Part shown: positions 4,835 to 16,683 of the stretch, piece by piece | Numbering within the stretch: the stretch's first letter is position 1 | Layout of the letters: each line of letters starts with the position of its first letter | DNA from: Candidatus Saccharimonadota bacterium | Lineage (GTDB): Bacteria > Patescibacteriota > Saccharimonadia > Saccharimonadales > Saccharimonadaceae | Direction: 5' to 3' | DNA length: 64,000 bases | Assembly: GCA_028289065.1 (NCBI GenBank) | Contig: JAQGHA010000006.1 | Location: forward strand, 26,850 to 90,849 | The notes under the pieces: generated by a model | Database searches by the model: none | What the model was told of the DNA's origin: nothing | Seen by the model: the letters and a program-made list of their open reading frames with translations, nothing else | Program-made: the position numbers and the translations under genes

Positions 4835-4894
4835 ACCCATATTATAACAGGCGGGCGGACTTTTCACTCGCTTCCTAATGGTATAATGAATGAT

Positions 4895-6172
4895 ATGCCT
4901 CAACCCTTTGTAATTATTTTGGGCAAAGCTGTCCGATACGCTGCGCGATTGCGTGGCGGTGGCTCAGCCCTCCCTGGCTTATTTGTCGAGAAGATAAGCC
5001 CAGACTTTATTCCCAGTACCCTTAAACAACTACCAAAAGGCGTGGTAGTTATTAGTGGTACCAACGGAAAAACTACTACCACCAAAATGGTGGTCGCCTT
5101 ACTGGAAAGCCAAGGCCTTAAGGTGTTTACTAACCGCACCGGCAGTAACTTTGTCCGCGGCGTGGCGGCTGCACTACTTGGCGATATTGATATTAAAGGC
5201 AAACTTGATGCCGATATAGCCGTATTAGAATTAGATGAAGCCCACGCAGTTAAATTTGTTGAGCTCATTCCACCCCGCTACAGCCTGCTGCTAAACGTCA
5301 TGCGCGACCAACTTGACCGCTTTGGTGAGATTGATGCGACCGCTCGAATGCTAGAAAAAATTGCATTAGCAACAACCGACACAGTGGTGATAAACCGCGA
5401 AGATGCTCGGATTTTAAAAATTGCCGACGCTATATCGACTGATGTACGCTACTTCGGCTTGAGTGATTCGCTTCTCTCACACTTCCCAAGTGACGATGAT
5501 TTACATGGCATCGCTAGCAAGAAATCTTTAAAAGAATCCGCTCCTCGACCGAACGCTGATGTCACTTTAAAAGACTTTAACGACAAAGGCGCCGCCTTTT
5601 CTATTGCCGGTAAAGATTTCGTCACCCCGCTGAGGCTTCGAGGTGTATACAATATCTTTAACAGTGCCGCTGCCCTTGCCCTGGTACGAACAATCGTGCC
5701 AGAAGCATCAATTAACAGCCTGCTTGGTTCACTTTCAACAGTTACCCCAGCATTTGGTCGTGGTGAAGTATTAACTGTTGACGGACAGCCGTTGGAACTT
5801 GTACTTGTAAAAAACCCGTCTGGTTTTAGGCTCGGTTTACAATCATACGACCCTGAGGGCTATGCTACGATGGTTGCGATCAACGATAACTACGCCGACG
5901 GTCGAGATATGTCTTGGCTATGGGACGTGGACTTTACAAGCTTAGAAAACGAGTCAGTCTATATTAGCGGTATACGCGCCTACGACATGGCCTTACGCAT
6001 GCAATACGATGACGTGCCAATTGAAAAAGTTGAAACTGATTTAACAACCGCCCTTCGTGACTTCATCAACCTGCATCCAGAAACCCCAAAACGTATTTAC
6101 TGTACATACACCGCAATGCTAGCCCTTCGTAAAGAACTCTCAAAAATAACTCGCGTGGAGGTAGTTTCATAA
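4895..6172 (+). CDS. murT: Lipid II isoglutaminyl synthase, Mur-ligase subunit MurT
   Basis: VVISGTNGKTTTTKM P-loop, Mur ligase middle domain, DUF1727-like C-terminus; followed by GatD; start reset to ATG 7 nt after TATAAT. Confidence 0.88.
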   Translation: MPQPFVIILGKAVRYAARLRGGGSALPGLFVEKISPDFIPSTLKQLPKGVVVISGTNGKTTTTKMVVALLESQGLKVFTNRTGSNFVRGVAAALLGDIDIKGKLDADIAVLELDEAHAVKFVELIPPRYSLLLNVMRDQLDRFGEIDATARMLEKIALATTDTVVINREDARILKIADAISTDVRYFGLSDSLLSHFPSDDDLHGIASKKSLKESAPRPNADVTLKDFNDKGAAFSIAGKDFVTPLRLRGVYNIFNSAAALALVRTIVPEASINSLLGSLSTVTPAFGRGEVLTVDGQPLELVLVKNPSGFRLGLQSYDPEGYATMVAINDNYADGRDMSWLWDVDFTSLENESVYISGIRAYDMALRMQYDDVPIEKVETDLTTALRDFINLHPETPKRIYCTYTAMLALRKELSKITRVEVVS

Positions 6173-6894
6173 TGGAAAAACAAGCAATTACAATTTTGCA
6201 GTTGTATCCGAAGGATATGAATATTTATGGCGATAACGGTAACCTTCAAGTTATTACCAAGCGCCTTAAATGGTATGGCTATACACCAGTTGTTATTGAA
6301 TATAACGTCGGCGACACACTACCTAAAAAAGTAGATATTGTGATTGGTGGTGGTGGCCAAGACAGCGGGCAAGAAAAAATTCATGCTGACCTTCTTAAAA
6401 TTGGGCCACAACTTCAAAAGTGGGCTGACCAAGGCGTACCTATGCTAATGGTGTGCGGCTTATACCAGTTATTTGGACATTTCTTTAAAACGCTCGCCGG
6501 TAAAAAGTTACAAGGTGTTGGTATTTTAGACATCGAAACATTCGGTACAAACGAACGCCTCATTGGAAATATTATCACCCAGTCTGCAGAATTCGGTGAC
6601 ATTATTGGGTACGAGAACCATAGCGGCCAAACCCACCTCGGTGCAAACACTCTTCCTTTAGCAACTGTCGTAAAAGGTGCTGGCAATAACTCAGCTGATG
6701 GCAACGAAGGCGCCCGATATAAAAATGTTATTGGCACCTATTTACATGGTTCAATTTTACCGAAGAACCCGCAACTTGCCGATTTCTTAATTCGTACCGC
6801 GGTTGAAAAGAAGCATGGCGAGTTCAGCCCAGACCTCATTGATGACTTGTTCGCCGACATGGCCCGTGAAATTGCTCGCAACCGACCACGATAG
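6172..6894 (+). CDS. gatD: Lipid II isoglutaminyl synthase, glutamine amidotransferase subunit GatD
   Basis: GATase-I nucleophile MVCGLYQLFG and His GTYLHGSILPKNP; overlaps murT. Confidence 0.9.
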   Translation: MEKQAITILQLYPKDMNIYGDNGNLQVITKRLKWYGYTPVVIEYNVGDTLPKKVDIVIGGGGQDSGQEKIHADLLKIGPQLQKWADQGVPMLMVCGLYQLFGHFFKTLAGKKLQGVGILDIETFGTNERLIGNIITQSAEFGDIIGYENHSGQTHLGANTLPLATVVKGAGNNSADGNEGARYKNVIGTYLHGSILPKNPQLADFLIRTAVEKKHGEFSPDLIDDLFADMAREIARNRPR

Positions 6895-8684: not shown

Positions 8685-9197
8685 CTATTTTTTCTTATTA
8701 TTCTTCTCAGCTACATGAGCTGGTTTAGTGAAGAATAAATCAATAATAGCCAAAATAACACCTATACTTATTACTACATCCTTGTAGTATATCGCCTGTT
8801 CATACAAATAAGCCGAAGTACCTTCAAGTGGTAATGCAAACCCAATTGGCTCTATCAAAAAGGCTAAAGCCAAAATGGTAAATAAAAGTGATCCAATGAT
8901 TCTTGAAAAAGCCGCTTTATATTTATACCCATGGAACAGTAAGACAATTGCAGGTAGTAAAACAACCAGTGACAACGATACGGCGTTGGTAATTGGGCCA
9001 ACCGGAACCAGGCCGGTACTGGCAATAACCAAACCAGCATCATAGCTCCACAGCGTACTTAAAGTTGCCCCGGCAGTTAATGCTAACCCGAGTAAGCCAA
9101 AGCGTCGTCGTGAGAAAAACGCCCCTGCGAATAGGGCGAGTGCTAAACCAATGAGTACTGCGGCGACTATCATAGTGCTATTGTACATCCATTTCAA
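8685..9197 (-). CDS. Integral membrane protein, unknown function
   Basis: Multiple hydrophobic helices; overlaps the DUF192 gene. Confidence 0.65.
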   Translation of the reverse strand: MKWMYNSTMIVAAVLIGLALALFAGAFFSRRRFGLLGLALTAGATLSTLWSYDAGLVIASTGLVPVGPITNAVSLSLVVLLPAIVLLFHGYKYKAAFSRIIGSLLFTILALAFLIEPIGFALPLEGTSAYLYEQAIYYKDVVISIGVILAIIDLFFTKPAHVAEKNNKKK

Positions 9198-9663
9198 AAT
9201 CGGCGATATCGCCTGTTTTTATACCAGCTTCATTAACACTTCCAGCCGGTAACTCTAGTACGTAACGAGCGGTGTCTTTTGGTGTATAGATAGTCTGCAC
9301 CGGGTCTTCAACGGGTGCATTTTTCACAATATAGACTACTTTTTTATTACTATCTAACCAAATAATATCGAGCGGGAATTTCATGTCTTTCATCCAAATG
9401 CCATGGGTACTATTGTGGTCGAAAGCCATGAGTAACCCGCCATTTGGTCGAAGCTTTTCAACACCAGATAAACCCTGAATGCGAGTTGGGTCAGTATCGG
9501 CCAGCCACAAAGAATACGCACCGCTGCCAAGGCGAACCTCAGTTGTTGGCTTAAAGGTGGATATCGTAAACGAAACAACAAGCCCAACCAGGATTAATAC
9601 CAAGCCAACTATTAAGATGATTGTTGTATGTGGTCGCCATACAAATAAGCGAAGCTTGTCCAT
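9178..9663 (-). CDS. DUF192 family protein with N-terminal TM
   Basis: RIQGLSGVEKLRPNGGLLMAFDHNSTHGIWMKDMKFPLDIIWLDSNKKVV. Confidence 0.85.
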   Translation of the reverse strand: MDKLRLFVWRPHTTIILIVGLVLILVGLVVSFTISTFKPTTEVRLGSGAYSLWLADTDPTRIQGLSGVEKLRPNGGLLMAFDHNSTHGIWMKDMKFPLDIIWLDSNKKVVYIVKNAPVEDPVQTIYTPKDTARYVLELPAGSVNEAGIKTGDIADFEMDVQ

Positions 9664-9742: not shown

Positions 9743-11017
9743 TTATATAAGGAAAATGCTATCTAGATGACGTACGAGTAACTTAAGCTCATCGTTCAGG
9801 CTATTGGAATCAAGCGGATCATTAAAACCAATAATACTATACGTCCTTTGCCCGGGTTTTTTCTCTATTCCTATTGCAGTCTCGGGGATAACAACAATTT
9901 CATTCGGCGAATTTAAAGCATCGATGCCCCAACCCAGTCGTAAATATGTACCATTTTTATCATAAACACCTAACTGACATTTGTCAGATAATTGCATAGG
10001 GGTCGTTTCTAAATTCTGCAATTTTAGGTAATAATACGTTGCTGGTAGCATTCGGTTTTCATTAAAAACTGTGGTATCGACTGTTTCTTGTGTTAAGCCT
10101 TCAACGTGCGCTGTTAAAAAATCATTTTTATATCCTACTGCCCGCATTGCCGTGGCGTATAAATGACTTACAGCAGTAAACCGAGGATTTAATTCAATGA
10201 GATAGACAACATTGTTAGTTTCATCGGTTACAATGTCTAATCCAAATACCCCATAATAATCTTCAGCAGCTAGTGACTCATTTACTTCATCAATTATGTT
10301 TTCAATTTTTGATATCCATTTACTAGGAATATTTTCCAGAATAGCTCCACAATACTTTGTTGCCGTATCGACAGCCGAATTATAAACGCCTTCAACGCTC
10401 GTCAAGTCCTTATGCCACCATGGAGCAAAATATGTTTGGCCATTATATCGAATACACTGCAAGGCTCGACTCGTGCCCTTAATATATTCACTTGCAACAA
10501 CTGTTTGATTTGACTCTTGCAAGGATGGCAAAACGATTTTTAAATCATTTTCGTCTTTGATGAAAAAAGTTCCTTTTCCACCTGTTGAATGATCGATTTG
10601 TAAAACAAAAGAAGACGAACCGAGGCTATTTACAAGCTGGCCATAGTCTATTTTCGAAACTTCATTCGCTTCTATCAAAACAAATTTGGGAAATAAGCTA
10701 GCATCAACAACGTGGCGAATATTTACTTTACTTTCTAAACGTTGCGCCGTGTCGTAGGCATTACCAAGGACACGTTTTGTGGTGTCCACGGCTTTCCATG
10801 CTATATAGTCACTTTCAATATCGTCATTATCAATTAATGCCTGTGGAGCACTCTCGACATCAAAATAGGTAACATCATCAAAACCTAAAATATCAGCACT
10901 ATCGCTCGCCGGTCCATTCTTAGCCGCAATTGCTCGCGTCGGGAAGAGTTGATTGTAGTAGACGTAATGAAGCGGATTAGTTACCGCAAGACTAACCTTA
11001 TTTAGCGGAGTGAGCAT
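9743..11017 (-). CDS. ATP-grasp superfamily ligase (cluster member A)
   Basis: ATP-grasp region FVLQIDHSTGGKGTFFIKD ... VVASEYIKG ... VVYLIELNPRFTAVSHLY; overlaps upstream gene by 20 nt. Confidence 0.8.
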   Translation of the reverse strand: MLTPLNKVSLAVTNPLHYVYYNQLFPTRAIAAKNGPASDSADILGFDDVTYFDVESAPQALIDNDDIESDYIAWKAVDTTKRVLGNAYDTAQRLESKVNIRHVVDASLFPKFVLIEANEVSKIDYGQLVNSLGSSSFVLQIDHSTGGKGTFFIKDENDLKIVLPSLQESNQTVVASEYIKGTSRALQCIRYNGQTYFAPWWHKDLTSVEGVYNSAVDTATKYCGAILENIPSKWISKIENIIDEVNESLAAEDYYGVFGLDIVTDETNNVVYLIELNPRFTAVSHLYATAMRAVGYKNDFLTAHVEGLTQETVDTTVFNENRMLPATYYYLKLQNLETTPMQLSDKCQLGVYDKNGTYLRLGWGIDALNSPNEIVVIPETAIGIEKKPGQRTYSIIGFNDPLDSNSLNDELKLLVRHLDSIFLI

Positions 11018-12323
11018 TCGCTTTAACCACTTTTATAGTAACGCCTTTTTCGATCCTGCGAATATCTGCAAGAATTTGCGATCGCTCTTTATGAGCCAGC
11101 GTCACGTCAAAGACACTACTTCCGCCATTCTTAGCAAATTTCAGCGAATCACCCTTAACATGCTTAACTTGGATATCTTCAAAAGAATCTAATTTAGAAA
11201 TTCTCTTGAATCCTTCAATAACATCAAGAATACCTTCTTCTTTTGCGAAGAACTGCAATACAGCTACGGTCTTGCGTGGTCGCTTTTTGATAATTGGTTT
11301 TTGTGGAATTCGAATTAATACGTCATTTAGTAAATGATCAATACCAAAGCTTAATTGGTACATTTTTGGACGATACCCACCCATACGCGGACCAACCTCA
11401 ATTATTTTCCAGCCTTCTTCAGTTCGCATAAGCTCAACGTGACATGTAATGTTACGTAAGCCAAGTGCGTGAATAGCTTCTGTCACAGCATGGTTAGCGT
11501 CATCAATACGATGATCTTTTAATTGTACGGGCATGATACGAAGGTAACCGAAAAAATCATCAAATCCAACATTAGCGCCGGTTTTTACAAATACTGGCGG
11601 GCAATGGTAGACATAGCCTCTTGCGTTAACGTATGCATCGATTGAGTACATCGTACCTTCCATAAATTCTTCAACAAGAACCTTAGGCTTGTCGTCACGT
11701 TCGCGTTCTTTATATAGTTTGTTGAGGGAATTCATTACTTGACGTAAGCTTTTTTCAAATTCTTCACGATAATAGCAAATTGTAACGTGCTTACTGGCCG
11801 CAAGTCCGGCTGGCTTAATAACCAGTGGGAATTGAATATATTTTTCAACTCGATTTAATGTCGATTCTCTCATATTTTCAACAACCATGAACTTAGGGCT
11901 AATTTCAGGGGCTCGTTCTTGAATTCGTTGTCGCATCTCTACCTTATCGGTAGCCCAGTTAAGCGATTCTTGTGTCGGTGCAAATAAGTAAGGAATATGT
12001 GGAATAATCTTCTTATAAGTGCGGATGTTATATTCACGCGAACATGTCGCGGCTAAAAGGCGGTCGCTATATGGTTGGAGGGCTTGTGAAATAATTTCAT
12101 CGTTAAGTTTTTTGAATACTAAAGGTAATTCAATGATTTTTTTACGGTATGCAGCAGAGGCTTTCTTTGAAAAATCTTTTGAACTCTCATTACCCATATA
12201 TAAGGCCTGTACATTTTTTTTATATTTTTTTTCGTAAGCAGTAACAACAGCACCCGCTTCATCGCGAGTTCCACCAACAAATAAAATCAAATCGCGCTGT
12301 TGCGCCTCATGGAACTCTGGCAT
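10998..12323 (-). CDS. ATP-grasp superfamily ligase, carbamoyl-P synthetase L/amino-acid ligase-like (member B)
   Basis: FPLVIKPAGLAASKHVTICY ... VLVEEFMEGTMYSIDAYV ... GWKIIEVGPRMGGYRPKM. Confidence 0.85.
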   Translation of the reverse strand: MPEFHEAQQRDLILFVGGTRDEAGAVVTAYEKKYKKNVQALYMGNESSKDFSKKASAAYRKKIIELPLVFKKLNDEIISQALQPYSDRLLAATCSREYNIRTYKKIIPHIPYLFAPTQESLNWATDKVEMRQRIQERAPEISPKFMVVENMRESTLNRVEKYIQFPLVIKPAGLAASKHVTICYYREEFEKSLRQVMNSLNKLYKERERDDKPKVLVEEFMEGTMYSIDAYVNARGYVYHCPPVFVKTGANVGFDDFFGYLRIMPVQLKDHRIDDANHAVTEAIHALGLRNITCHVELMRTEEGWKIIEVGPRMGGYRPKMYQLSFGIDHLLNDVLIRIPQKPIIKKRPRKTVAVLQFFAKEEGILDVIEGFKRISKLDSFEDIQVKHVKGDSLKFAKNGGSSVFDVTLAHKERSQILADIRRIEKGVTIKVVKANAHSAK

Positions 12324-12438
12324 GCTGTATCTTTCTTATGTTAGTTGTTACTACTAGTTTTACCGCACAACTACGGTTATGTCTATCGTTTAATTCTGTC
12401 TTATTATAACATTTGTGAGCGCTTTTTGCAATACTCTG

Positions 12439-13371
12439 TTATGAAGTTACCCAATCAAGATAGGTATCTGCTACATGCCTAGAATCACCATAGTGAGGAT
12501 ACTCGTGGAGGCCGAAGCTTGGCGCGGTATTTATTTCAATTAAATAGCCTGTTCCTGATTCATCAATAATATAATCGACACCGGCAACATCAAGTCGTAA
12601 ATATTCAACCAACCGCTTTGCTTCTTGGGCAATATTTGGACTAACAGTATCTGTCACATCAATAGACACACCACCTTGACCAATATTAGCCGTTCCGACA
12701 ACTTGAACTTTTTCGCCCATACCAGGTACTATCGCTACTGATTCTTTTAGATAAGCGTACGCCACATCGGTATTGATAAGTGTTTTGGTTAACTCGTACC
12801 CTTGACCTCGGTCGCCTTTCGTATTTTCTATACCAATCAATTCGGTAAGTGTATGTTCCCCATCACCTACAACGAACGCTGGTTCCCGGATAGCAGCTGC
12901 AGCTAATTCACCACCTATAAATAAAAGCCTATAATCGTCACCTTCAACGTGTTTTTGCAATATGGTCGTTGATCCGAACGTTTGCGCTAATTCAACTGCA
13001 TCATGCAACCCTTGTTCGGTAGTTACGTTTACAGTTATTCCGTTGCCATGACTTTGGTCATGGGGTTTAACAACAACTTTTTTATTTGTCTTCAAAAATT
13101 CATTTGCTTGATTATAATCTGTGAAAATTTCTGTTGGCGCAAGCGATGCTAAATTGTTCTTTTTTACTAAATCGTATAAAAGGTTTTTGTACTTAGTTAT
13201 AAAGCCATTAACACCTGATCCACGGTATGAGGTTAAGTTGTGAAAGTAATACGTTTCGTTTTTATCTGTAATAACTTCAAAAAAATCGAGCGATTCATCT
13301 ATTAAATTTGCCGTCCACCCTCGTTTAACAGCTGCTTCAATAATTGCTCTGGTGGTAATACTTACTTGCAT
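12439..13371 (-). CDS. ATP-grasp ligase of the cyanophycin synthetase/GshF type (member C)
   Basis: KVVVKPHDQSHGNGITVNV ... DYRLLFIGGELAAAAIREPAFVVGDGEHTL ... GTGYLIEINTAPSFGLHEYP. Confidence 0.85.
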   Translation of the reverse strand: MQVSITTRAIIEAAVKRGWTANLIDESLDFFEVITDKNETYYFHNLTSYRGSGVNGFITKYKNLLYDLVKKNNLASLAPTEIFTDYNQANEFLKTNKKVVVKPHDQSHGNGITVNVTTEQGLHDAVELAQTFGSTTILQKHVEGDDYRLLFIGGELAAAAIREPAFVVGDGEHTLTELIGIENTKGDRGQGYELTKTLINTDVAYAYLKESVAIVPGMGEKVQVVGTANIGQGGVSIDVTDTVSPNIAQEAKRLVEYLRLDVAGVDYIIDESGTGYLIEINTAPSFGLHEYPHYGDSRHVADTYLDWVTS

Positions 13372-13429
13372 TCATTCAGTATACCACATGCTATTTTACA
13401 AAGTAAAGGTTTTATGCTATAATTAACAT

Positions 13430-14356
13430 ATGGAATCGACTGAATTTTCTTCTCAAAGAAAAAATCTTAATATTAACGGTTTGTTTATTGGTGGCGGTTT
13501 ACCCCTTAAAGGAAATACTGATCCAACCGAAAGCATACCTTTACTAGACGCGAGCTTAGAATTAGCTAAGGTAAGTAAACCTAACTTATTAATAGTCTCC
13601 TCTGCCCGTTGGTCCAATAAGGCATCTACCGAAGAAACATTGGTAAATTTTCAAAACTATTTTGAATATCGTGGACTATCTACAAAATCACTTCACCCTT
13701 TTCTTGGGTTTGATAAATCAGAGCGTGAAAGCGCTACGGAACCTTTGCCTATTATTGACGAGACCCAAGTACCTGAGACTGAAGAATTATCTGAAAGAAT
13801 TTCAGAAGCTGATTTAATTTATGTTTTAGGTGGCGATGCGAATCGAATGCTGAATACCGCCTGGCGGCCATTAGGTATCGACACTATGCTTAAAAATGCC
13901 GCTGAACGTGGAACTGTTTTTACAGGCAATAGTGCCGGGTGTTTAGCCTGGTTTGAATATGGCTTAAGTGCAAGTACAAGCTTGAGCGCCGAGTATGAAC
14001 AGAAAGATTATAACAAGTTCAAACTAGTCAAAGGCTTGGGTTGGGTAGCGAACACAATTTGTAGCCCTCACTATGATCAACTGATTCATGGGCGATCACG
14101 TGAAGATGCGCTCATTAGCGTTATTAAAGACCGAGAGCGCGTTAATGAAATTGGTATGGGAATCGATAACGACGTAGCCCTGCAGATTATTAACGGCAAT
14201 GAAGGAAGCGTGGTGAGGGGCCCAGGTAGTGGACGAAGGTCGATTCATTCTTTGCGATTTACTAATCACGGTGTAGCTACTGAAGAACTAACTCCAGATT
14301 CTGGCACCTTTGCACTTTCTTCGCTCTTCAACTCAGCCGACAATTCGTCCTTGTAA
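13430..14356 (+). CDS. S51-family serine peptidase (dipeptidase E/cyanophycinase-like)
   Basis: LIYVLGGDANRML and nucleophile elbow FTGNSAGCLAWF. Confidence 0.85.
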   Translation: MESTEFSSQRKNLNINGLFIGGGLPLKGNTDPTESIPLLDASLELAKVSKPNLLIVSSARWSNKASTEETLVNFQNYFEYRGLSTKSLHPFLGFDKSERESATEPLPIIDETQVPETEELSERISEADLIYVLGGDANRMLNTAWRPLGIDTMLKNAAERGTVFTGNSAGCLAWFEYGLSASTSLSAEYEQKDYNKFKLVKGLGWVANTICSPHYDQLIHGRSREDALISVIKDRERVNEIGMGIDNDVALQIINGNEGSVVRGPGSGRRSIHSLRFTNHGVATEELTPDSGTFALSSLFNSADNSSL

Positions 14357-14366
14357 GAGTTACGGA

Positions 14367-15440
14367 CTAATCGCTAAAATCTCGTAATATTTCTTTTTGC
14401 TTCTTGGAAAGCTTGGTTGGAGTATCAACCGTAATGCTCACAATATGTGGCCCGCGCCTATCGCTATTCATATGTGGCACACCATGCCCAGATAGCTTGA
14501 AATCAGTACCTGATTGCGTTCCGGCTGGCACTTTCATACGAACTGTACCGTCAACGGTTTCAACTTCAATTTCCGTTCCCAGGGCTGCGTCTACCATGTC
14601 GACATGCTCTTCCGAAAGAACAATATCACCTTCACGGGTAAACTTTTTATGCGCTTTTACACGAATGTGAACATAGAGGTCACCTTTTTCACCATCAGTA
14701 ATTGCCTCGCCACGGCCACTAAGGCGCATAGTCGCTCCGTCATCGATACCAGCCGGAATTTTAACCTTAATTGATTGCTTTCGACGTTGTGTACCAGTAC
14801 CTCGACAAACGGTACAGACTTTTTCTGGAATCTTGCCACGACCATGACAGGTATCACATGGAACAGTTTGTTGAATAGCACCAAACATTGTATTCATGAC
14901 TCGGGTTTGCTGGCCAGCCCCATGACAGGTAGGGCAAGTCTTTAAGTCATGGCCAGGTTCAACAGTTGTGCCCTTACAGTGTTCACAGGTATCGTCGATA
15001 TCAAGGGTCATTTCGTGTTCGATGCCAAAAATAGCTTCTTCAAATGTTAATTGAAGCTGCACCTCTACATCACGACCGCGCTGAGGACCACGTTGGCGTT
15101 GGCCACCGCCACCGAAGAATTGGCTGAATATATCGCCTAAGCCATCGCCAAAGTCGAAATTGCCGGTTTGACCACCGAAACCCTCGAATGGGTTTCCGCC
15201 ACCGCCACCACCGCCGCTTGCACCACCAACACCCGCATGACCAAATTGGTCGTAGCGTTGGCGTTTTTGGGCGTCTTTAAGAATGTCGTAGGCTTCGTTA
15301 ATTTCTTTAAACTTTTCCTCATTACCACCCTCTTTGTCGGGGTGATGCAAAACAGCGGCGCGTCGGTACGCCTTTTTAATTTCATCAGCCGAAGCGGCCT
15401 TTGAAACACCTAAAACTTCATAGTAATCTCGTTTACTCAT
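14367..15440 (-). CDS. dnaJ: Chaperone DnaJ
   Basis: J domain HHPDKEGG, G/F region, four CxxCxGxG-type zinc repeats; start reset to MSKRDYYEVLG. Confidence 0.97.
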   Translation of the reverse strand: MSKRDYYEVLGVSKAASADEIKKAYRRAAVLHHPDKEGGNEEKFKEINEAYDILKDAQKRQRYDQFGHAGVGGASGGGGGGGNPFEGFGGQTGNFDFGDGLGDIFSQFFGGGGQRQRGPQRGRDVEVQLQLTFEEAIFGIEHEMTLDIDDTCEHCKGTTVEPGHDLKTCPTCHGAGQQTRVMNTMFGAIQQTVPCDTCHGRGKIPEKVCTVCRGTGTQRRKQSIKVKIPAGIDDGATMRLSGRGEAITDGEKGDLYVHIRVKAHKKFTREGDIVLSEEHVDMVDAALGTEIEVETVDGTVRMKVPAGTQSGTDFKLSGHGVPHMNSDRRGPHIVSITVDTPTKLSKKQKEILRDFSD

Positions 15441-15462
15441 ATCTGTTACTAGTATAAAACAT

Positions 15463-15489
15463 CTAGCACTCATATGTCTAGAGTGCTAG
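15463..15489. promoter_or_regulatory. CIRCE operator upstream of dnaJ
   Basis: CTAGCACTC-ATATGTCTA-GAGTGCTAG, perfect 9-9-9 inverted repeat. Confidence 0.93.
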
Positions 15490-15564: not shown

Positions 15565-16683
15565 ATGAAACCTCTTATCCGCGCCATTGGAGCCGTTGCT
15601 GGCCTCATCCATGCTGAATACCGCCAACTATACAACCGTTACTTCGGAAAAATTGAACGTTTCCCCGGTAATGCTCGAGAAATCTGCCAGCAAATTGTCG
15701 ATCGACTTTGGTATGGTGACTTTTACCGCACCAGCCTCGGACACTATAATTTCTTCTGGATGCGTGACTTCGGAACAGTCGCCCAATCATTGGTTCGCTT
15801 AAACCAAACAACACACGTCCACCACACATTAAGGTGGGCCTTGCGTCACTACATGCGGGCTGGCGCTATTAAATTATGTATTGATAAAGCCGGAAATGTA
15901 TTTAATGCCCCTGGCCGTCAGAGCATTGACGCTTTGCCTTGGCTTTTGCATTCATTGACTGTTAGTGAATATAATCTAAATGATAAAGAGCGAGAATTTT
16001 TAAATAAAGAGCTTCGCAACTATTCATCGACGTTCCTTGATGAAAGTGGCGATATCTTACCAAACATTATTTTTGCCGAAATGCGCGATGCTGTGTATTA
16101 CAATCGCAGCGCTTACGCTATTTCATTGGTTGGTAGGCTGGCTCAATGTGTTGATTCACTCAACCTGTCTGATTTTCACTTTGCACCCGAACGTTACAGC
16201 GACATCCTTATTCATAACTACTGGACAGGTGATTATTTTCGGGCTGACCGCTCCAGCCAAACCTTTAGCTCCGACAGTGCTTTAATGCCGTTCTTTTTAG
16301 GAATAGTCGATGATGCCGTCATGGTTGGAAAAACTATGGATTATATTACTACCAAAGAACTGAACAAGCCCTACCCAATGAAGTATGGTGAAGAACCAGA
16401 GAAACCCCTTCGCTACCGTTTTGGCATGGGGCCAATTTCAATGCCTAACTATACCGAGACCAGCATATGGACGTGGCACGCCACATACTATCTACACCTT
16501 TTAAAACGGTACAATCGAGCTGAATATATTGAACAATACCGAGCCTTCAGTAGCTTGATTGAACGCCACGGTAGTTATCCTGAACTCTTAGCACCAGATG
16601 GTTCATGGTATTATGCGCCTTTTTACCGGGCAGACCCAGGGATGATATGGGCTGCGTTATTCCTGGAATTACCTGAAAGTTAA
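15565..16683 (+). CDS. Six-hairpin glycosidase-like protein
   Basis: HYNFFWMRDFGTVAQSLV ... FAEMRDAVYYNRSAYAI ... (alpha/alpha)6-like repeats. Confidence 0.6.
   Translation: MKPLIRAIGAVAGLIHAEYRQLYNRYFGKIERFPGNAREICQQIVDRLWYGDFYRTSLGHYNFFWMRDFGTVAQSLVRLNQTTHVHHTLRWALRHYMRAGAIKLCIDKAGNVFNAPGRQSIDALPWLLHSLTVSEYNLNDKEREFLNKELRNYSSTFLDESGDILPNIIFAEMRDAVYYNRSAYAISLVGRLAQCVDSLNLSDFHFAPERYSDILIHNYWTGDYFRADRSSQTFSSDSALMPFFLGIVDDAVMVGKTMDYITTKELNKPYPMKYGEEPEKPLRYRFGMGPISMPNYTETSIWTWHATYYLHLLKRYNRAEYIEQYRAFSSLIERHGSYPELLAPDGSWYYAPFYRADPGMIWAALFLELPES

Follow-up and report, generated by a model that had tools for sequence, protein, structure and literature searches.

Genes and promoters of the locus

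The DNA analysed here is a stretch of 64,000 nucleotides (the window) from the genome of a Candidatus Saccharimonadota bacterium (contig JAQGHA010000006.1, positions 26,850 to 90,849), and its subject is a cassette of four genes: three consecutive minus-strand genes for ATP-grasp ligases, designated A, B and C, and a divergently oriented gene for a protein of the peptidase family S51. All four ORFs lie where a preliminary description of the DNA had placed them, and each is supported by Pfam. The module is real, conserved and rare. Judging from the sequences, the three ATP-grasp enzymes are intact, each from a different family, and are combined with an S51-fold partner; the gene order is kept in two families of Saccharibacteria, and the genes lie in the chromosomal slot which in most relatives holds RimB and RimK. 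The genome has a size of 0.93 Mb and is 97.8% complete; its organism is probably host-dependent. The locus consists of the following features:

8685-9197, minus strand: small membrane protein, downstream anchor of the locus
9178-9663, minus strand: presumed DUF192-type protein, downstream anchor of the locus
9743-11017, minus strand: gene A, divergent ATP-grasp ligase of 424 aa, last in the C-B-A run
10998-12323, minus strand: gene B, ATP-grasp_4 / L-amino-acid-ligase-like protein of 441 aa
12439-13371, minus strand: gene C, stand-alone ATP-grasp (G) domain of the CphA/GshF type, 310 aa
13372-13429: C/S51 intergenic region of 58 bp, putative bidirectional promoter region by consensus matches only
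13430-14356, plus strand: S51 (cyanophycinase/PepE-like) protein of 308 aa, divergent from C
14367-15473, minus strand: dnaJ, upstream anchor of the conserved locus

The ligase genes are transcribed in the order C, B, A, with the start of A lying inside the end of B by an overlap of exactly 20 nt. Sequence inspection and a consensus scan of the C/S51 gap returned a plus-strand promoter on the S51 side (TTTACA-N17-TATAAT, 13395-13423, 11/12 consensus match) and a minus-strand promoter on the C side (TTTACT-N18-TATACT, 13407-13378, 9/12). The two -10 hexamers stand back to back about 35 bp apart, which, like the 20-nt overlap, agrees with the preliminary description, and because each ends 6 nt before its ATG both transcripts are probably leaderless. 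The number of matches in the scan was not above that in shuffled sequence, and the promoter call rests on placement.

A scan of named genomes found this set of four genes, order included, in Ca. Saccharibacteria RYN_414 (L107, contig JAQGGT010000006.1; its contig coordinates match genome G255), which belongs to another family. There, dnaK, dnaJ and one unrelated gene are followed by the divergent S51 gene, C, B and A, and the C/S51 gap of 55 bp has a layout similar to that of the window. The proteins share 36% (S51), 41% (C), 76% (B) and 47% (A) identity with those of the window. Since the four genes recur in identical order in another family of the order, their co-occurrence is more than chance. 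Maximum-likelihood trees pair the proteins of the window and of L107 as sisters, with support of 100/100 for B and 97/94 for C, whereas DnaK and DnaJ of L107 are only 78 and 69% identical to those of the window, compared with 88 and 76% for genome G036. By these comparisons the relationships of the cassette differ from those of the genomes, which points to ancient exchange or differential loss, as L107 is distant by DnaK/DnaJ and a sister by B and C. A recent transfer as the cause of the 76% identity of B is ruled out, because synonymous sites are saturated (42/168 matching, the random level); B is accordingly under strong purifying selection and, with DnaK at 78% identity, as constrained as this chaperone.

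Partial versions of the cassette are dnaJ-S51-C-B in L110, dnaJ-S51-Gsh-C-B in L139 and C-S51-Gsh-B-RimB-RimK in L057/G047, so that an S51 gene lies next to a C-type gene in the window, L107, L110, L139 and L057, five genomes in all. All 13 of the 13 A-family homologues found in the class sit within the dnaJ locus. L107 and L110 furthermore share a short family between dnaJ and the S51 gene (L107:7012-7737 and L110:6150-6932).

With regard to the surroundings, the gene at 9178-9663 for the presumed DUF192-type protein is found at the same place in 16/17 genomes of the genus. A glycoside-hydrolase-like-looking gene (15565-16683) lies between dnaJ and dnaK, a position kept across the genus. At 4886-6894 a Mur-ligase-like gene is followed by a glutamine-amidotransferase-like gene, which by their look may be the lipid II amidation pair MurT/GatD.

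The dnaJ-adjacent island in related genomes

The interval from dnaJ to the genes for the DUF192-type protein, the transmembrane protein and ComEC is referred to as the island. Genes of relatives were classed by profiles built for this analysis and counted in a dnaJ-anchored family sample comprising 39 intervals with both edges present; the classes of representatives were confirmed by Pfam (RimK PF08443 and Rimk_N, RimB PF05618, MATCAP PF08014, Mur ligase, glycosyltransferase). RimK was present in 35 of the 39 islands, RimB in 33, a further ATP-grasp gene in 21 and a MATCAP-type metallopeptidase in 16, and within the genus RimK was detected in 14/14 and RimB in 13/14 islands. The cassette of the window occupies the very slot which in these relatives is taken by RimB-RimK. 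An alignment of five RimK members matched 79/101 family genomes and had no match in the window genome. A better frame than that of the preliminary description is the RimK/RimB locus which Saccharibacteria carry next to dnaJ, here with other genes in place of RimK and RimB. The surprise expressed in that description at finding such genes in a reduced genome is weakened as well, since members of the family as a rule have ATP-grasp ligases there.

Ligases and peptidases are also physically joined in the islands: RimB is fused N- or C-terminally to C-type, Gsh-type or g100_5-type ATP-grasps in 13 island ORFs. The D(T/S)GA motif is present in 57/57 RimB-class ORFs, and nearly all MATCAP-class ORFs carry a zinc-binding HExxxH or HExxH motif. 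MATCAP is the family of the eukaryotic tubulin tyrosine carboxypeptidases. Its members (PF08014) adjoin ATP-grasp ligases in L060, L064, L070, L094, L103, L218, L228 and other loci, and such a combination would be a bacterial counterpart of the eukaryotic pairing of tubulin tyrosine ligase and carboxypeptidase. Several islands moreover contain a protein family of 590 aa (M590, L069:6141-7913 and homologues) which has an HExxH motif, matches nothing in Pfam and is possibly an undescribed metallopeptidase.

The strong variation of locus content between genomes raises the question whether the dnaJ-comEC interval is simply an insertion-tolerant spot in which unrelated ATP-grasp genes have gathered without any joint function. 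The GC content of the cassette, 0.39 compared with 0.44-0.47 in its surroundings, would fit such an origin. However, the inserts are nearly all ATP-grasps or peptidases and include the RimB-ATP-grasp fusions, the four-gene order has been kept in two families despite saturated synonymous sites, and the divergent promoter layout of 55-58 bp has been kept with it. We regard a mere insertion spot as quite improbable.

No paper describing the dnaJ-adjacent locus was found in a literature search with little coverage of subscription journals, and RimK and ATP-grasp are unmentioned in one genetics paper and one proteomics paper on Patescibacteria.

Relatives and catalytic residues of the four proteins

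In all three ligases the metal-binding acidic residues are retained (D261/E275/N277 in A, E297/E309 in B and E279/N281 in C). Protein A matches Pfam ATP-grasp_3 (3e-9) and, weakly, the NCBIfam LdmS model; its best PDB profile match is 7r8p, SAOUHSC_02373 of S. aureus (E 1.8e-9). Its ATP-grasp residues K148, D261, E275, N277 and R279 are invariant among relatives. The AlphaFold2 (AF2) model of A (mean pLDDT 78, N-terminal part poor) has an ATP-grasp fold of the PurK/GARS type. Housekeeping roles of the PurD, PurK or Ddl kind were considered for A and B and rejected; the fold search with A is topped by PurK and GAR synthetases at an identity of 10-14%, and owing to this low value and to the uncertain N-terminal model the role of A is not assignable by fold alone.

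Protein B matches Pfam ATP-grasp_4 (7e-21) and weakly LAL_C2, and its nearest solved structures are 4dim, 3vot (the L-amino acid ligase BL00235) and BacD. Toward these ligases, as for A toward the LdmS/SAOUHSC_02373 type, the identity is low and the homology distant, so that substrates are not readable from it. Unlike the known ligases, B forms a clade of its own which is widespread in bacteria of the candidate phyla radiation (CPR). Homologues with 40-50% identity occur in other CPR groups, namely Uhrbacteria, Magasanikbacteria, Kaiserbacteria and Falkowbacteria (L111-L142), where about half of them adjoin another ATP-grasp gene and some are tandem duplicates. G036 has another copy of B, located away from the dnaJ island (L071:5791-7098) and 37% identical to B of the window.

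Protein C matches Pfam ATP-grasp_3, YheCD and GSH-S_ATP (1e-8 to 2e-7), the PDB entry 7lgn (1e-36) and the NCBIfam models for GshF (6e-42) and cyanophycin synthetase (cya_phycin_syn, 2e-55), which bears out the resemblance noticed in the preliminary description. Its observation that no complete CphA is present also holds: the match covers model positions 160-468 of 862, i.e., the G domain only, so that C has neither the N nor the Mur-ligase domain which CphA1 combines with G in one chain, and a search of the 0.93-Mb window genome with C found no second CphA/GshF-like gene. The G domain of CphA1 converts the C-terminal carboxylate of the growing chain into an acyl phosphate, to which Asp is then added, and E215, S396 and R458 are in contact with the chain and with the Asp to be added (PMC9427784). 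C retains Lys62, Lys102, His108, Arg148, Arg162, Asn229, Glu279 and Asn281, corresponding to K220, K261, H267, R309, R323, N394, E450 and N452 of CphA1, among them the residues for ATP and, with the first five, those for the acyl phosphate. In contrast, Glu215 is replaced by Phe57, Ser396 by Gly231, Gly456 by Ser285 and Arg458 by Gly287. Because the catalytic residues are kept, the same acyl-phosphate chemistry is likely in C; cyanophycin synthesis is unlikely, as the residues recognizing aspartate and the arginine-bearing chain are lost.

The S51 protein matches Pfam Peptidase_S51 (2e-18) and falls below the cut-off of the NCBIfam cyanophycinase model TIGR02069 (2e-13, 50 bits compared with 126.6). 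The GNSAG nucleophile elbow described before is indeed present, and Ser168 and His214 of the triad are retained. The third triad residue, for which PepE has Glu and MccG has Asp (PMC9239234), is Asn247 according to both the alignment and a PDB profile search. Asn stands at this position in five related island S51 proteins, and in L107 the motif around it is lost (GLGMTA). The best Foldseek match of the AF2 model is 7uqv, a pseudo-CphB. The protein thus shares the CphB/PepE fold, but its peptidase activity is uncertain because of Asn247.

These residues bear on the possibility that C makes cyanophycin or a close analogue which the S51 protein degrades. C is homologous to the G domain of CphA1 and the S51 protein to CphB, and a split CphA, a C-type gene with a separate Mur ligase, exists at the same locus in L105 and L219. 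Nevertheless, the substrate-binding residues named above are missing from C, the cassette contains no Mur-ligase partner, and the third triad residue is Asn. On the residue map of C and this triad position the reading was rejected, and we consider it barely credible; the analogy to cyanophycin synthetase and cyanophycinase drawn in the preliminary description is not supported. As to the split arrangement, which recalls CphA, RimB-RimK in L105:9056-13804 and in L219 is preceded by genes for a C-type grasp, for a further, putative grasp and for a separate Mur ligase.

Most RimB-fused C-type proteins, unlike C of the window, retain Ser396, Gly456 and Arg458. S51 neighbours occur only with the C subclass carrying Gly396 and lacking Arg458 (5/9 loci compared with 0/19, p=0.0013, uncorrected for ancestry and locus choice). 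This confinement is suggestive of ligase specificity and eraser type going together.

Possible functions of the cassette

Taken together, we favour, at a confidence somewhat above even, the view that the four genes form one functional module, a variant of the writer-eraser locus of the RimK-RimB type. In the RimK-RimB (RimABK) S6 glutamylation system and its RimBK hybrids (PMC11957791, PMC7343187), which in relatives occupies the same slot, RimB removes what RimK adds (PMC11957791), and the theme of ATP-grasp ligases with a small peptidase as reversal partner, including ligase-peptidase fusions, is shared. The cassette differs in that the places of RimK and RimB are taken by members of three other ATP-grasp families and by an S51 protein, and in the lack of an S6-tail signature. 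According to this proposal, A, B and C would convert carboxylates into acyl phosphates and attach amino acids one after another. C would extend a peptide at its C-terminal carboxylate, like the G domain of CphA1, B would act as an amino-acid ligase and A would perform a third amide step. The product may be a short non-ribosomal peptide that tags a protein, or else an oligopeptide that stays free, and the S51 protein would trim it, or recognize and bind it, in the place of RimB. Of the synthesis and turnover of a peptide, polymer or modification which the preliminary description had proposed, this retains the co-inherited module, seen in the order shared with L107/G255 and in the trees of B and C, with a peptide or modification as the natural reading.

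Several observations weigh against this proposal. The exact A type, like the exact cassette, was found in only 2/393 genomes of the class. For two of the three grasp enzymes only distant relatives have been solved. No RimB was found in the cassette or the 64-kb window, to which this search was confined. The weakest step of the mechanism is the S51 protein, whose eraser role may be false in view of Asn247 in the window and the loss of the motif in L107. Finally, no tie between RimK and the tail of ribosomal protein S6 emerged. S6 is the known target of RimK, and as the locus normally holds RimK/RimB, the cassette could replace RimK on its classical target, all the more as S6 of the window ends in ...ETNEAN and not in the ...EEE of many relatives. 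This single striking case did not hold over 56 genomes: terminal Glu was found in 26/35 RimK-positive and 13/21 RimK-negative genomes (p=0.38), a negative that is weak because some of the RimK-negative genomes are incomplete assemblies. S6 as the acceptor is not favoured, and we hold it to be very improbable.

The relatives of A and B are compatible with another product. The three ligases could make a small free peptide or peptidyl metabolite (a signal, an antimicrobial, an osmolyte or a tRNA-synthetase-type toxin), with the S51 protein serving self-protection or recycling. The nearest relatives of B are L-amino-acid ligases and BacD, those of A dipeptide ligases of the SAOUHSC_02373/LdmS type, and the S51 enzyme MccG confers immunity to a peptidyl-nucleotide antibiotic (PMC9239234). 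But no exporter, carrier protein or precursor peptide adjoins the genes, and at this locus relatives carry RimK/RimB and RimB fusions, enzymes whose substrates are protein tails or poly-glutamate (PMC11957791). We consider this alternative, including the protective or recycling role of the S51 protein, unlikely. An anti-phage defence system was also considered and dismissed, since no PADLOC model matched any of the four proteins. With the Rlo operon of Pseudomonas (RloA retropepsin, RloB and RloC ATP-grasp; PMC12239564) the cassette shares an ATP-grasp gene beside a peptidase gene, both thought to serve one process; however, the cassette has neither a secreted protein like RloA nor the inactive-transglutaminase membrane protein with which RloA works.

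The writer-eraser view can be extended from the window to the island as a whole, which may be a locus for combinatorial peptide tagging: RimB and RimK would form a core that hardly varies, joined by ATP-grasp writers and peptidase erasers (RimB, MATCAP metallopeptidases, S51) from an exchangeable set that produce lineage-specific amino-acid tags, and in the window both core and eraser would have been replaced entirely. We put this forward tentatively, as a possibility well short of probable. The locus-wide pattern, a fixed slot with exchangeable writers and erasers, is the novel part, more than the four genes alone. If true, ultrasmall episymbionts with genomes of about 0.9 Mb would reserve one fixed place next to the genes of their main chaperones for the post-translational addition and removal of amino acids or for small peptides, and the ligase families at this locus would be swapped between lineages. 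The RimB-ligase fusions and the MATCAP neighbours would then make a bacterial parallel to the editing of tubulin tails directly testable.

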